NCBI RefSeq assembly: GCF_029490015.1
Contig: NZ_CP120468.1
Coordinates: 186,001 to 250,000 of the forward strand
Direction: 5' to 3'
Origin: Halobaculum limi
GTDB lineage: Archaea > Halobacteriota > Halobacteria > Halobacteriales > Haloferacaceae
DNA: 64,000 nucleotides
Under the pieces are notes generated by a model. The model saw nothing but the letters and a program-made list of their open reading frames with translations. It was not told the origin of the DNA and did not search any database. The position numbers were made by a program, and so were the translations under genes. This document shows, one piece after another, positions 43,912-52,530 of this stretch; position 1 is the first letter of the stretch, and each line of letters opens with the position of its first letter.

Positions 43912-44910
43912 TCAGGGCAACAGCAAGTAGAAGAACACGAGGTAGCCGCCGAGCAACACGGCCCCGTCGAGGCGGCCCACCTTCCCGCCGCGGGCCATCA
44001 CCGCGATGGCGGCGACGGTGAACGCGATGAGCGCCGGGAAGTCGAACGACTCGACGCTGATGGAGACGAACATCGGTGCGATGACCGCCACCAGTCCGAG
44101 GACGGCGAGGACGTTGTAGATGTTCGACCCGACGACGTTTCCGATCGAGAAGTCCGCCTGTCCACGCAGCGCCGCGACGACGCTGGCGGCGAACTCCGGC
44201 AGCGACGTGCCGAACGCCAACACCGTCAGACCGACGAGTCGCTGGGTGAAGCCGAACTGGTAGAGGATCGACCGTCCGCTGTCGATGAGCCATCGTGATC
44301 CCAGGAACAAGAACGCCAATCCGACGAGGAGGAAGGCGACGTGACGAACCGATAGTCCGGAGGCGTCGACATCCGGCATCTCCTCGACGACGCCGCCGTC
44401 GGTGACGGCTCCGGACTCGTCGACTGCGGCGGCGTCGCCGGTCGCGTCGCGGTACAGGACGTACGTGAACGCCGCGAGAACGAGCAGGAACACCGCACCT
44501 TCGGCGCGGTTGATGATCCCGTTGCGGCCGAACACGACGAGCAACACCGCCGCCAGCGCCATAAACGGGACGTGCCGACGGACCACGTCGGACGACACCG
44601 ACAGCGGACGCAACAGCGCAGAGACCCCGAGGACCAACCCGATGTTGGCGATGTTGGAGCCGACGATGGCCCCCAATCCGAGTTGCGAGTCGCCCTCGAC
44701 TCCAGTGAGAACGCCGATGAACAGTTCGGGCGCCGTGGTGGCGAACGCGACCACCGTCACGCCGACGAGCGCCGCGTGGATTCCGACGCCGAGCGCCAGC
44801 CCGGTCGCACCCTTCACGAGCGCCTCCGCGCCGAGATACAAGAACACGACTCCCAACAACAGGAACAGACCGTGTTCCGAGAGAAGTGCGTCAATCAGTT
44901 GGAACAGCAT
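43912..44910 (-). CDS. Calcium/sodium antiporter (CaCA family, YrbG-like)
   Basis: A 332-aa exchanger with ten membrane helices in two inverted halves. The alpha-1 repeat is VTVVAFATTAPELFIGVLTG with GAIVGSNIANIGLVLG, and the alpha-2 repeat is LAFGTSLPEFAASVVAA with GNVVGSNIYNVLAVLG; the Glu and Asn residues bind the ions. An acidic loop near residues 165-185 separates the halves. A TATA-like GTTTAAGTAC (44933-44942) sits 28 nt before the ATG, so it has its own leaderless promoter. Confidence 0.93.
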   Translation of the reverse strand: MLFQLIDALLSEHGLFLLLGVVFLYLGAEALVKGATGLALGVGIHAALVGVTVVAFATTAPELFIGVLTGVEGDSQLGLGAIVGSNIANIGLVLGVSALLRPLSVSSDVVRRHVPFMALAAVLLVVFGRNGIINRAEGAVFLLVLAAFTYVLYRDATGDAAAVDESGAVTDGGVVEEMPDVDASGLSVRHVAFLLVGLAFLFLGSRWLIDSGRSILYQFGFTQRLVGLTVLAFGTSLPEFAASVVAALRGQADFSIGNVVGSNIYNVLAVLGLVAVIAPMFVSISVESFDFPALIAFTVAAIAVMARGGKVGRLDGAVLLGGYLVFFYLLLP

Positions 44911-45004: not shown

Positions 45005-46093
45005 TCACACGAGCGTCATCATGTACCCGGCGTAGCCGACGAGGAGGCCGAGGCCAGCGAGGCGTCCGACCCGCCCGCGGACCACGAGGAGGAGTCCACA
45101 AACGGCGGTGGCCACCACGAGTGCTGGGAAGTCGGTGGCGACAACTTCCGACGGGACACGGATGGGCGAGACGAGCGTCAGGACGCCCAGCACCGCGAGG
45201 ACGTTATAGATGTTCGACCCGACGACGTTACCGACAGAGAAGTCTGCCTCGCCCCGGACTGCGGAGACGAGACTGGCGGCCAGTTCCGGCAGCGACGTGC
45301 CGAGTGCGAGGACCGTGACGCCGACGAGGCGGTCGGAGCCACCGAGCAGGTACAGCGCAGCCGTCCCGCCCTCGACGAGGCGGCGTGCTCCGACGAGGAG
45401 AAAGCCGAGGCCGACCGCGAGAAACAGGAGGTCGCGGGCACTGATAGCGGTCAGGCGAGCCGCCGGTGTCGTGGCCGCGGTGCCGCCGTCGGTCGCGACT
45501 GCGTCGTCCCCAGCGGACGACTCTTCGCTATCGGGAACACCCCGGAGGAGGACGACCGTGAACCCTCCGAGCGCGAGCAACAGGAGGCCACCGTCGAGCG
45601 CGCTCAGCGTGCCGTCGAGGCCGAGACCGACCAACAACAGCGCCGCGAGCGCCATGAACGGGAGGTGCCGACGGACCGTCTCACGGGAGACGACGAGCGG
45701 CCGGACGAGTGCCGAGAGGCCGAGGACGAGACCGATGTTGGCGACGTTCGACCCGATGACCGCGCCGAGACCGATGGTCGTCGTCTTCTCGACGGCACCG
45801 ACGAGGGCGACGAACAGTTCGGGCGCCGTGGTGGCGAACGCGACCACCGTCACTCCGGCGACGGCCGCACGAACGCCGACGTCCGTCGCCAGCCCCTTCG
45901 CCCCCTTCACCAGCGACTCCGCGCCGAGATACAGGAGGACGACGCCGACGAGCAACGAGATGCCCGCGCCGTTGCTCTTCAACGCGAGCCAGATCCACCG
46001 TGGATCCGTCTTCAACGCCAGCGGCGCAGAGGGAGTCGGGACGGCGGCCCCGAGGAGACTGCCGATCGAAACAGGATCGAAAGATGCGAACAC
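45005..46093 (-). CDS. Calcium/sodium antiporter (CaCA family), paralogue
   Basis: A 362-aa paralogue of the neighbouring exchanger, sharing both alpha repeats almost word for word (FATTAPELFVALVG with GAVIGSNVANIGLVLG; GTSLPELAASLVSA with GNVVGSNIYNVLAVLG). It has an N-terminal extension of about 35 residues and a different acidic middle loop. The start is GTG 46093 with a TATA-like GAGTTAACAG about 29 nt upstream. The pair probably arose by tandem duplication and may differ in ion preference or regulation. Confidence 0.92.
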   Translation of the reverse strand: MFASFDPVSIGSLLGAAVPTPSAPLALKTDPRWIWLALKSNGAGISLLVGVVLLYLGAESLVKGAKGLATDVGVRAAVAGVTVVAFATTAPELFVALVGAVEKTTTIGLGAVIGSNVANIGLVLGLSALVRPLVVSRETVRRHLPFMALAALLLVGLGLDGTLSALDGGLLLLALGGFTVVLLRGVPDSEESSAGDDAVATDGGTAATTPAARLTAISARDLLFLAVGLGFLLVGARRLVEGGTAALYLLGGSDRLVGVTVLALGTSLPELAASLVSAVRGEADFSVGNVVGSNIYNVLAVLGVLTLVSPIRVPSEVVATDFPALVVATAVCGLLLVVRGRVGRLAGLGLLVGYAGYMMTLV

Positions 46094-46254: not shown

Positions 46255-47091
46255 ATGGACGTCTACGGACTCATCGGGAACCCAGTCGGCCACTCGCTGT
46301 CGCCGCCGATGCACGAGGCGGCGTACGAAGAATTGGGGCTGGACGCGCGATATGTCACCTTCGAACCCGCTCCCGACGCGGGCGCAGAAGCCGTCACCGC
46401 CGCGAAGTCGCTCGGTGTCGCGGGGCTGAACGTGACGGTGCCGTTCAAGCAGGACGTACTCGAAGCGGTCGACCCCGACGACCTCGCAGCTGAGGTGGGT
46501 GCCGTCAACACCGTCGACCTCCGGACGGACCCGCCGAGCGGGTACAACACCGACGTGGCGGGAGTCCAGCGAGCGTTCGACCACCACGGCGTCGACCGCG
46601 AGGGCGCGTCGGCCGTCGTCGTCGGCGCGGGTGGTGCGGGGCGGGCGGCCGCGTTCGCCCTCGCGGAGTCGTCGGTGACGCTCCACATCGCGAACCGGAC
46701 GGCGGAGAAGGCGACGTCGCTCGCGGAAGCGGTGCGGTCCTCGATCGGGGACGACCTCGACACACCGACGACGGTGACAGCGGGCGGCTTAGACTCGCTG
46801 GCGGAGACGGTCCCGACTGCCGATGTGCTGGTGAACGCGACGACCGTCGGGATGGAGTCCGACGAGACGCCCATCCCCGCTGATCTCTTGCACGGCAACC
46901 TCGCGGTGTTGGACGCGGTGTACGCGCCGTTGGAGACCCGCCTCCTTCGCGACGCCGCGGCGGCGGGTGCGACGACCGTCGACGGCGCGTGGATGCTGTT
47001 GTTTCAGGGCGTTGAGGCGTTCGAGCGGTGGACTGGGGAGGAGGCGCCGGTGGCGGTGATGAACGAGGCGCTTCGCGAACACTTGGAGTGA
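46255..47091 (+). CDS. aroE: Shikimate dehydrogenase
   Basis: A 278-aa enzyme reducing 3-dehydroshikimate to shikimate with NADPH in the chorismate pathway. The substrate-binding half has NPVGHSLSP near residue 9 and the catalytic Lys in NVTVPFKQ near 64; [10 protein letters not shown] carries the catalytic Asp. The cofactor loop is GAGGAGRAA near 125 followed by NRT, the NADP-binding Arg. A TATA-like ACTTATCC lies 26 nt upstream. It precedes, with one gene between, an operon that consumes chorismate. Confidence 0.95.
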
Positions 47092-48046: not shown

Positions 48047-49654
48047 ATGGAGACGGTCACCGACCGCAAACGGTTCCGAGCGCTCGCGGCCGACGCCCCG
48101 CCCGACGCCCGGATTCCCGTCGAGTGCCGGGTCGCGGTCGCGGACCCGTTCGACGCCTACCGCCGGGGCCGTCACGCCGACCGGCCGGGCGCGTTCTACG
48201 AGACGACGGGCGGCCAGTCGGGGTGGGGCTACTTCGGCGTCGACCCGGTCGAGACGCTGACCGTCGGCCCCGACGCCGTCGTCCGCGACCCCGACCATCC
48301 GGGCCACGGCGACTACGCCGCGCCGTCGCCGACGCTGGAAGCGCTCGACGGCCGCCTCGACGGCGAGACGCTCGTGCGCGGCGACTGCGACGTGCCGTAC
48401 CCCTGTGGCGTCCTCGGGTGGCTCTCGTACGACGTGGCCCGCGAACTGGAGTCGTTCCCCACCGACGGCGCGGTCGACGACCGCGGCCTCCCACGGTTGC
48501 AGGCGGGCGTGTACGCCACGCTCGCCGCGTGGGAGGAACCACGCGACGAGGACGGCGAGACAGTCCTTCGGATCACCTCCTGCCCCCGACTCGCTGACCA
48601 CCCGGACGCCGACGCCGCGTACGACGCCGGACACGCGGCGGCGGAGTCGCTTGCGACCCGCGCACTCGATGGCGACCCGTCGATCGGACCCCCGCCAGCG
48701 ACCGCCGCCGACGCCGTCCGTTTCGAGAGCGACTGCGGCCGCGACGCCTACGCCGACCGTGCCCGCCGCGTCAAAGAGTCGATCCGTGCTGGCGACACCT
48801 TCCAAGCGAACGTGAGCCAGCGGCTCGAAGCGCCCGCCGCAGTTCACCCCGTCACCGCCTACGCCGCGTTGCGGGCGCGCAATCCCGCGCCGTACTCCGG
48901 CTTGGTTGAGTTTCGCGGCGTCGACCTCGTGAGTGCGAGCCCCGAACTCCTCTTGCGACGCGACCCCGGCGACACAGACGCCGCCGCGAGCGACAACGCG
49001 GTTCGACTCGAAACGGAACCCATCGCGGGCACGCGACCCCGCGGCGGCGACGCCGACGCCGACGACGCCCTCGAAGCCGAACTGACGGGCGACGAGAAAG
49101 AGCGTGCGGAACACGCGATGCTGGTCGACCTCGAACGCAACGACCTCGGGAAGGTGAGTCGCTACGGCAGCGTCTCGGTGCCGGAGTACCGCCGTGTCGA
49201 CCGCTACTCGGAGGTGATGCACCTCGTCTCGCTGGTGGAGGGCACCGAACGCGTCGACCGCTCGATAGCCGACACACTCGCGGCGGTGTTTCCCGGCGGC
49301 ACCATCACCGGCGCGCCGAAGCCCAAGACTATGGACATCATCGACTCGCTGGAGGGCACCCGCCGCGGGCCCTACACCGGGTCGATGTTCGCGGCGGGGT
49401 TCGACGGCCGCCTCGTCGCCAACATCGTCATCCGCACGCTCGTGCGCACGGGCGACCGCTACCACCTCCGCGTCGGCGCGGGCATCGTCCACGACTCCGA
49501 CCCCGAGGCGGAGTACGAGGAGACGCTGGCGAAGGCGCGAGCGCTCGTTCGATCGGTGGACGATGCTCTCGATGGCCGGATGGAACTCGCCGACGACGAG
49601 AGCGTCGACGGAGAGACGGCCGGCGAGGAGACGGACTCGGAGGTGGGCGAGTGA
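48047..49654 (+). CDS. pabB: Chorismate-utilising component I (PabB/TrpE family)
   Basis: A 535-aa chorismate-binding enzyme acting with the amidotransferase encoded next. Conserved catalytic segments: [11 protein letters not shown] near residue 250, [10 protein letters not shown] near 296, [10 protein letters not shown] near 325, [13 protein letters not shown] near 360, GTITGAPKP near 420 and the C-terminal [17 protein letters not shown]. The PIAGT alanine (codon 49025-49027) is the residue of anthranilate synthase; aminodeoxychorismate synthase normally has Lys there. Downstream pabA and pabC-like genes argue for p-aminobenzoate synthesis, so the exact product is uncertain. ATG 48047 is preferred to GTG 48032. 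Confidence 0.85.
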
Positions 49655-50241
49655 CCCGCGTCCTCGTCGTCGACAACTACGACTCGTTCGCGTACAACCT
49701 CGTGCAGTACGTCGGCGAACTCGCCGACGAGGTGCTGGTCCGGCGCAACGACCGCGTCGACGTCGACGGCATCCGCGACCTCGACCCGGACGGCGTCGTC
49801 GTCTCGCCCGGCCCGGGAACTCCAGCGGAGGCGGGCGTCTCCATCCCGGTGTTCGCGGAGTTGTCGTACCCGACGCTCGGCGTCTGTCTCGGTCATCAGG
49901 CGCTGTGTGCCGCCAACGGTGCCGAAGTGACGCTCGCGCCCGACGTGGTCCACGGGAAGCCCTCCGACGTGCGCCACGACGGCCGCGGCGTCTTCCGCGG
50001 CCTCCCCGACCGCGTCGAGGTGGGGCGGTACCACTCGCTGTGTGTCGAACACGACGCCGTTCCCAACACACTCACCGAGACTGCCCGCACCGACGACGAA
50101 CGCGAGGTGGTGATGGGCGTGCGCCACACCGACCGTCCGCACGTCGGCGTGCAGTTCCACCCCGAGAGCATTCTCACGCCCGACGGGAAGGCGATGGTCC
50201 GGAACTTCATCGACATCTGCGAGCGTGGGGGATTCCGATGA
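49651..50241 (+). CDS. pabA: Glutamine amidotransferase, component II (PabA/TrpG family)
   Basis: A 196-aa class I glutamine amidotransferase supplying ammonia to component I. The nucleophilic Cys is in GVCLGHQAL near residue 80, and the His/Glu pair in HPESI near 170; the oxyanion loop is SPGPGTP. It starts with GTG 49651 overlapping the component I stop (GTGA), and its own stop overlaps the next ATG, so all three proteins are made in fixed proportion. Confidence 0.93.
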
Positions 50242-51221
50242 GCGACGACCTGCGGTACCACGTCGACGGCGACCTCGTGCCCGCGAGCGAGGCGTCGGTG
50301 TCGGTGCGCGACCGGGGCTTCCAGTACGGCGACGCCGCCTTCGAGACGGTTCGCACGTACGGCGGGACGCTCTGGCGGTGGGACGCCCACGTCGACCGCC
50401 TGTTCGACACGCTCGAGACGCTTGGGATGCCCGCCGACGAGATGGGCCTCTCGCGGCTCGACCTCCAAGCCCGTGTCCGCGACACCCTCCGCGCAAACGG
50501 CCTCCGCGACGCGTACGTGCGCCTGTCGGTCACGCGCGGGGAGACCGCCGGGTTCGCGCCGCCCGACGCCGCCGACACCGACCCGACGATAGTGATCCTC
50601 GTGAAGCCGCTTCCCCGCGGCGGCCGCAAGTCCGCGGGCGAGGAGTCGACGTGGGACGGCCCCGCAACCATCCAGACGGTGAAGACGAGACGGATGCCCG
50701 ACCGCGCGATTCCGAGCGACGCGAAGACGCACAACTACCTCAACAACGTCCTCGCCCGCGTCGAGACGCGCGTCACCGGCGCGGACGAGGCGGTGCTGCT
50801 CGACGACGAGGGGTACGTCGCCGAGTGTTCGACGGCGAACCTCTTCTTCGTCGCCGACGACGCCATTCGAACTCCGTCGCTGGAGGGGCCGGTCCTCCCT
50901 GGCGTTACCCGCGCAGAACTCCTCGACATCGCCCGCGAGGAGGGCTTCCCCGTCGAGGAGGGGCGGTACGAACCCGACGACGTGCGCGGGGCCGACGAGG
51001 CGTTCATCGCCTCGTCGATCCGCGAGATCCGACCCGTGGGCACGTACGACGGCGTCGATATCGGCGGCGGTCCGGTGACGACGCTGCTCTCGAAACTGTA
51101 CGACGACCGGGTAGAGCGCGAGTGTTACACGGGTGGCGACAGGGGCGGCGACGAGAGCGGCGACGGTGGGGGCACCGACAGTGACGACAGCGAACACGGG
51201 AACGCAGCAGCGGACGAGTGA
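50238..51221 (+). CDS. pabC: Class IV PLP enzyme, aminodeoxychorismate lyase-like
   Basis: A 327-aa fold-type IV PLP protein, the family of 4-amino-4-deoxychorismate lyase, branched-chain aminotransferase and D-amino-acid transaminase. VRDRGFQYGDAAFETV near residue 24 is the N-terminal motif; the PLP Lys is in SDAKTHNYLNN near 168; EGYVAECSTANLFF and VLPGVTRAELL follow. Operon position after component I and amidotransferase favours the lyase that forms p-aminobenzoate. A 35-residue acidic Gly-rich tail ends the protein, and the tnpB element begins right after its stop. Confidence 0.87.
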   Translation: MSDDLRYHVDGDLVPASEASVSVRDRGFQYGDAAFETVRTYGGTLWRWDAHVDRLFDTLETLGMPADEMGLSRLDLQARVRDTLRANGLRDAYVRLSVTRGETAGFAPPDAADTDPTIVILVKPLPRGGRKSAGEESTWDGPATIQTVKTRRMPDRAIPSDAKTHNYLNNVLARVETRVTGADEAVLLDDEGYVAECSTANLFFVADDAIRTPSLEGPVLPGVTRAELLDIAREEGFPVEEGRYEPDDVRGADEAFIASSIREIRPVGTYDGVDIGGGPVTTLLSKLYDDRVERECYTGGDRGGDESGDGGGTDSDDSEHGNAAADE

Positions 51222-51279: not shown

Positions 51280-52530
51280 CTACGACACCACTTGTTCTCT
51301 CGTGTGAAACGTCCCGCTCTCGCGGTCGAACAAGTGTGTCGATGGCTGTGCCACACAGCCGTTACTCCTATCCTCGCCGTGAGGACTCGGAGTTATCTTC
51401 TGACGCATATTCTCCGCCCCGTTACAATCCGCGTTGGCTACTAGCTCACACGACGAGCAGACGTACAAACCACGTTCGACACGGTTCGACTTCGTGTCGT
51501 CACCACACCGTGAACACGTCTTCGACGTATCCCACTCGTTCTCTTTCAGCACCCCAACCCCTCGAATTTCGCCCTTGTAGTCGAGGTACTGGTAGATGCG
51601 GTCGAACGCCCACGTGTGGAGTTTCTTGTTGCCGGTCTTCCCCCAATCAGATTCGCGCACGTCTTCGGGCCAACTCACTGCAAGCGTGCCAACACCGCGT
51701 TCGACACACTCCGTGATGATGGCGTCTGTCAGCGTGTGGTAAAAGTGCGTCTCGCGGTCAGCGAGTTTCCTGCGTGCCCACATCGACTGCTCCGACGGCT
51801 CGCCCTCACCCTCAGTGTCGTACTCGGCTCGCGTGAAGTAGTGCTTGTCCTGCTTGAGCGAGTTACCGGGGTAGAGAACGTATTCGTCTGGGAACGCGAC
51901 CGTGGCGATGTTTGTGATACCGAGGTCAATACCGGCCACTTGGTCGCCCTCAGAGTCGGTGGTTTCGAGTTCGACTTTACAGACGAAGTGCATTTCCCAC
52001 TCGTCACCGTTCCAGACGGCGCGAACGTTCTGTACCTTGTTGACTTCCGAAAGGTCAACGTCGGGCCGAGTCTGGTACTCACAGAGGATGAAGTCTGAGA
52101 AGTGTTCTTTGAGGTTCGAGCCTTTCGAGAGTCGAACGCGATTGTTCTCAGGGTCGTGTTTGAACCCGTCTTCTTTGAACGTGACTGTACTCTTGGGTCG
52201 GGTGTCGCCGTGTTTGCGGTAGCCAGGCGGATTCGCCTCGTCAAACTTGTGTCGCAGGTCGAACCACGACTGGAAAGCGTCAGAAAGTTCTTCAATGACT
52301 TTCTGACTGGATTGTGCGTTCAGGTTTTTCCAGCACGACTGGTTCTTCATATACGATTTAAGAGAACCTTCGTTGGGAATCTTACCGATTGCGTTCCAAA
52401 CTCGGTCGGCTGTCCATCGTGCGACGTTCCAGATTTTCGAGGCGGAATCGCCGAGCGAGTCGAGGCCATCGCGTACTTGTCGGTGGTTCTGGATGGAACC
52501 AACGTAGGTACGAGTGACCTGAATCGCCAT
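51280..52530 (-). CDS. tnpB: RNA-guided endonuclease TnpB
   Basis: A 416-aa TnpB, the transposon-encoded RNA-guided nuclease related to Cas12. RuvC residues: D202 in AGIDLGITN and D368 in NADCNGAEN. The middle acidic residue lies in TLAVSWPEDVRE (282-293), which is unusual; E289 is the likely candidate. The zinc ribbon is intact: CSRC at 339-342 and CSSC at 358-361. The C-terminal tail (PHGEDRSNGC onward) is one seen in many haloarchaeal TnpBs. Full length, no frameshift. TATA-like GCATTAAC lies about 27 nt before the ATG. Confidence 0.94.
   Translation of the reverse strand: MAIQVTRTYVGSIQNHRQVRDGLDSLGDSASKIWNVARWTADRVWNAIGKIPNEGSLKSYMKNQSCWKNLNAQSSQKVIEELSDAFQSWFDLRHKFDEANPPGYRKHGDTRPKSTVTFKEDGFKHDPENNRVRLSKGSNLKEHFSDFILCEYQTRPDVDLSEVNKVQNVRAVWNGDEWEMHFVCKVELETTDSEGDQVAGIDLGITNIATVAFPDEYVLYPGNSLKQDKHYFTRAEYDTEGEGEPSEQSMWARRKLADRETHFYHTLTDAIITECVERGVGTLAVSWPEDVRESDWGKTGNKKLHTWAFDRIYQYLDYKGEIRGVGVLKENEWDTSKTCSRCGDDTKSNRVERGLYVCSSCELVANADCNGAENMRQKITPSPHGEDRSNGCVAQPSTHLFDRESGTFHTREQVVS

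Follow-up and report, generated by a model that had tools for sequence, protein, structure and literature searches.

A probable haloarchaeal pabBAC operon with alanine in place of the covalent lysine of PabB

Three consecutive open reading frames on the + strand at 48047 to 51221 of the window, the whole stretch of 64,000 nucleotides that was analysed, very probably form an ordinary haloarchaeal p-aminobenzoate (PABA) operon, pabBAC. Its PabB is predicted to make 4-amino-4-deoxychorismate (ADC) without a covalent lysine, probably via 2-amino-2-deoxyisochorismate (ADIC). This product and route are inferred; what the sequence itself shows is the gene content, the motif states, the kinship with PabB and the presence of a separate anthranilate synthase. 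The genome carrying the window is haloarchaeal, with 3.48 Mb in 2 contigs, and of the named relatives found Halobaculum saliterrae comes closest (best segment 79%).

The pabB gene (48047 to 49654, + strand) encodes an ADC synthase component I of the PIAGT type, 535 amino acids long, named on its best NCBIfam model, best PDB match and tree grouping. The pabA gene (49651 to 50241, + strand) encodes a glutamine amidotransferase subunit of 196 amino acids, assigned by TIGR00566, in which the triad Cys79-His170-Glu172 was located. The pabC gene (50238 to 51221, + strand) encodes a class IV PLP protein (PF01063) of 327 amino acids with a presumed PLP lysine at position 163, a probable aminodeoxychorismate lyase. 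Four bases are shared by the stop of pabB and the start of pabA (GTGA at 49651) and again by the stop of pabA and the start of pabC (ATGA at 50238), which bears out the PabB-PabA-PabC order with start and stop overlaps given in the initial annotation.

The surrounding genes were named by eye. An aroE-like gene, for the shikimate dehydrogenase of the chorismate pathway, lies one open reading frame upstream of pabB (46255 to 47091, + strand), and a TnpB-type (IS200/IS605) protein is encoded directly downstream of pabC on the opposite strand (51280 to 52530, - strand). Two adjoining open reading frames (43912 to 44910 and 45005 to 46093, both - strand) resemble Na+/Ca2+ exchanger-type membrane proteins and are perhaps a tandem duplication.

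Component I has a match to the chorismate-binding domain PF00425, and its best PDB match is 7pi1, an ADC synthase component 1. The best NCBIfam model is TIGR01824 (PabB-clade2), where its 391.4 bits are 17 bits short of the cut-off of 408.55, so that it is filed under the wider PabB kind and not under TIGR01824 itself. It is under the cut-offs for TrpE (TIGR00564, 344.7 versus 517.7; TIGR01820, 288.3 versus 512.05). PabA reaches 211.4 bits with TIGR00566 (trpG_papA), above the cut-off of 121.05, and is well below that of the haloarchaeal TrpG model NF041322 (195.5 versus 320). The class IV protein falls short of all PabC models (TIGR03461, 125.3 versus 176.85; NF005800, 170.7 versus 308) and below the IlvE cut-off (TIGR01122, 193.3 versus 245.55). 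With no curated cut-off reached, its assignment as PabC rests on the operon and on a separate IlvE in the genome, and is therefore probable only.

An alanine at codon 49025 to 49027 (+ strand), within a PIAGT motif, had been read as the TrpE state of an anthranilate-type component. The alanine is indeed there: residue 327 of component I aligns exactly with Lys274 of E. coli PabB, the residue that forms the covalent adduct, and takes its place. According to a published account, the lysine of PIKGT bonds covalently to C2 of chorismate (PMC7552465). The accompanying statement that ADC synthases have PIKGT holds for E. coli PabB and fails for two PDB entries deposited as ADC synthase, 7pi1 and 4grh, where alignment gives PIAGT as in the window protein. 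We take these to be the PabB proteins of Bacillus subtilis and Stenotrophomonas maltophilia respectively, the latter distant in sequence from that of the window. The alanine is thus not diagnostic of TrpE and, since it occurs in other bacterial ADC synthases, is no sign of a different product.

This column is alanine in all 22 haloarchaeal loci compared and in 57 of the 58 bacterial ones. The single bacterial locus with PIKGT, L054 from a Latescibacterota genome, groups with PabB, so that alanine and lysine are both present inside the PabB group. A DNA pattern for PIAGTRPRG matched 334 of 391 Halobacteria genomes, a match that by itself is no proof of pabB in any one genome; a pattern for PIKGTRPR matched none of the 391. 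The TrpE of the genome itself has PIAGTIRRG, and falls outside the first pattern.

A second anthranilate synthase, in which component I would eliminate pyruvate and feed tryptophan or a secondary pathway, is very unlikely. It would fit the alanine at the PIKGT position, as found in TrpE, but the state of another motif is that of PabB. FPGGTITG (residues 415 to 422 of component I; 49289 to 49312, + strand) is a PabB-type motif, present in the window protein and in each of the 20 haloarchaeal rows, out of 22, that extend over it. The other five rows of the PabB group, E. coli PabB, 7pi1, 4grh, L054 and L085, all have FPGG[ST]ITG. None of the remaining 56 bacterial rows has the first glycine, nor do the three TrpE references; Ala, Met, Val or His takes its place.

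The LLES motif, which we take to be the tryptophan site of TrpE, is ETTGG in the window protein and its haloarchaeal relatives, and this loss also counts against a second anthranilate synthase. The serine is replaced by threonine in 22/22 haloarchaeal rows and is kept in 58/58 bacterial rows. E. coli PabB also retains it; the loss of LLES therefore argues against a TrpE-like control by tryptophan and is not in itself a mark of PabB. Glu300, His392 and Arg463 of component I align with Glu258, His339 and Arg410 of E. coli PabB, presumably its active-site residues, and the FPGG motif is common to both proteins.

In the tree, one group (SH-aLRT 99) unites the window protein, 20 homologues from haloarchaea and the five rows 7pi1, 4grh, E. 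coli PabB, L054 and L085, and all TrpE rows fall outside it. Two haloarchaeal sequences cut by contig ends (L027 and L031) were left out of all trees. A reduced tree, from which the long rows own_MenF, 4grh, E. coli PabB and L085 had been removed, gave a haloarchaeal/PabB group of 23 rows with support 99/96. A quick tree that also lacked L054 and L069, with 7pi1 as the sole other PabB, joined the haloarchaeal proteins to 7pi1 with support 98. These values are to be read with the long-branch warning that treekit attached to each of the three trees, in which long branches meet. Homologues of component I from species of Haloferax and Natrialba other than H. volcanii and N. magadii belong to the same group as the window protein, with no difference of note. 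By identity, the nearest bacterial homologues of component I are mostly TrpE-like.

The gene neighbourhoods of the homologues, 22 haloarchaeal and 58 bacterial, were tallied by hand. Among the closest bacterial homologues, many belong to trp operons, with trpD at 28 of the 58 loci, as a second anthranilate synthase would have it; against this, trpD was found at 0/22 haloarchaeal loci, with no match to trpD or trpF there. In 20 of the 22, pabA lies downstream of component I, the other two being cut, and pabC is found within 5 kb in 17. For the remaining five no pabC was found within reach, two of them (L027 and L031) ending at a contig end. On chromosome 2 of Haladaptatus halobius there are two pabB-pabA pairs approximately 0.7 Mb apart (L023 and L026), neither with pabC within 5 kb.

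A pabC was found at one of the 58 bacterial loci (L085). The Omnitrophica component I of this locus (L085:4971-6530) adjoins the pabC-like gene and combines PIAGT, LLES and FPGGTITG. Its best NCBIfam model is trpE_most, below the cut-off, and it is likely to be a PabB that could go unrecognised in automated annotation.

The tree, the FPGG motif, the loss of LLES and the neighbouring genes agree in placing component I with PabB and not with TrpE. The genome, moreover, already has its anthranilate synthase. Its own TrpE is of the archaeal type (TIGR01820, 579.6, above the cut-off of 512.05), and the TrpG next to it scores 358.2 with NF041322, above 320. Both trpF and trpD, named by eye, lie upstream of this pair, so that a further trpE/trpG set in the neighbourhood of trp genes, for which the initial annotation had proposed to look, does exist. 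Anthranilate synthase was accordingly rejected as the identity of component I on motif, tree and the genome's own TrpE and TrpG.

Three chorismate-binding genes were found in the genome: TrpE, an isochorismate synthase and the PabB of the window. Isochorismate synthase was rejected as an identity for component I, as another gene is above that cut-off (349.7 versus 224.75). Of the two class IV genes, one is IlvE (464.4, and also 481.2 over a cut-off of 279); it is located elsewhere, and IlvE was for this reason rejected as the identity of the third gene of the operon.

The operon is already known in haloarchaea. In Pfeiffer 2021, HVO_0710, HVO_0709 and HVO_0708 of Haloferax volcanii are named pabB, pabA and pabC (PMC8305020), and another paper gives a pabABC operon for Natrialba magadii (PMC3403918). 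These genes, with Nmag_2792-2794 in the latter species, are the same three as in the window. Pfeiffer 2021 also treats HVO_0710 and B. subtilis PabB as isofunctional, lists identities for HVO_0710 of 46% with Thermus TrpE versus 44% with B. subtilis PabB, and mentions that experimental confirmation is lacking (PMC8305020). An assay of any haloarchaeal PabB was not found in the literature searched. B. subtilis PabB resembles the window protein in its tree group as well as in PIAGT. The two organisms differ in that one glutaminase serves both PabB and TrpE in B. subtilis (PMC8305020), while PabA and TrpG are separate genes in the window's genome.

In the proposed pathway, PabA would release ammonia from glutamine and PabB would add it to chorismate, giving ADC. 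The window PabB has no active-site lysine for a covalent adduct at C2, and its route is therefore probably non-covalent, via ADIC as reported for B. subtilis. Work by Schadt in 2009 reportedly showed ADIC to be an intermediate of PABA synthesis in that species, and Bera in 2012 is said to have set the PIAGT PabBs apart as a subclass in which two ammonia equivalents are used and no covalent adduct forms. A further paper states the ADIC step of the B. subtilis route (PMC3174152), and the 2009 work is cited for B. subtilis PabB in PMC8305020. PabC would then remove pyruvate from ADC to give PABA. Of the three products that had been proposed for component I, PABA made without the lysine is the one the evidence favours; the anthranilate reading is unsupported.

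Component I could also be an ADIC synthase whose product the class IV protein turns into something other than PABA, given that PIAGT enzymes form ADIC and that the class IV protein scores below the curated cut-offs for PabC as well as IlvE. This is extremely unlikely: the operon is spread across Halobacteria like a core pathway, a FolC-FolP fusion gene for folate is present, and no other pab set was found in the genome beside that of the window. Equally improbable is that haloarchaeal PabB releases ADIC, its class IV partner makes a non-PABA metabolite and PABA comes from an archaeal dehydroquinate route. For Halobacterium salinarum, one study marks two genes for the step from chorismate to PABA, leaves PABA from dehydroquinate possible because the media contained folic acid, and notes that route as known in a methanogen (PMC4162585).

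For the pabBAC operon as an ordinary source of PABA, the FolC-FolP fusion means that PABA has a consumer, and the fusion protein would use it for folate. Caution is needed in naming these enzymes, as PIKGT versus PIAGT fails to separate PabB from TrpE. The first glycine of FPGG[ST]ITG split them without exception in the rows compared: on one side stood 26 PabB-group rows, that of the window included, and on the other the 56 remaining rows from bacteria together with the three references for TrpE.
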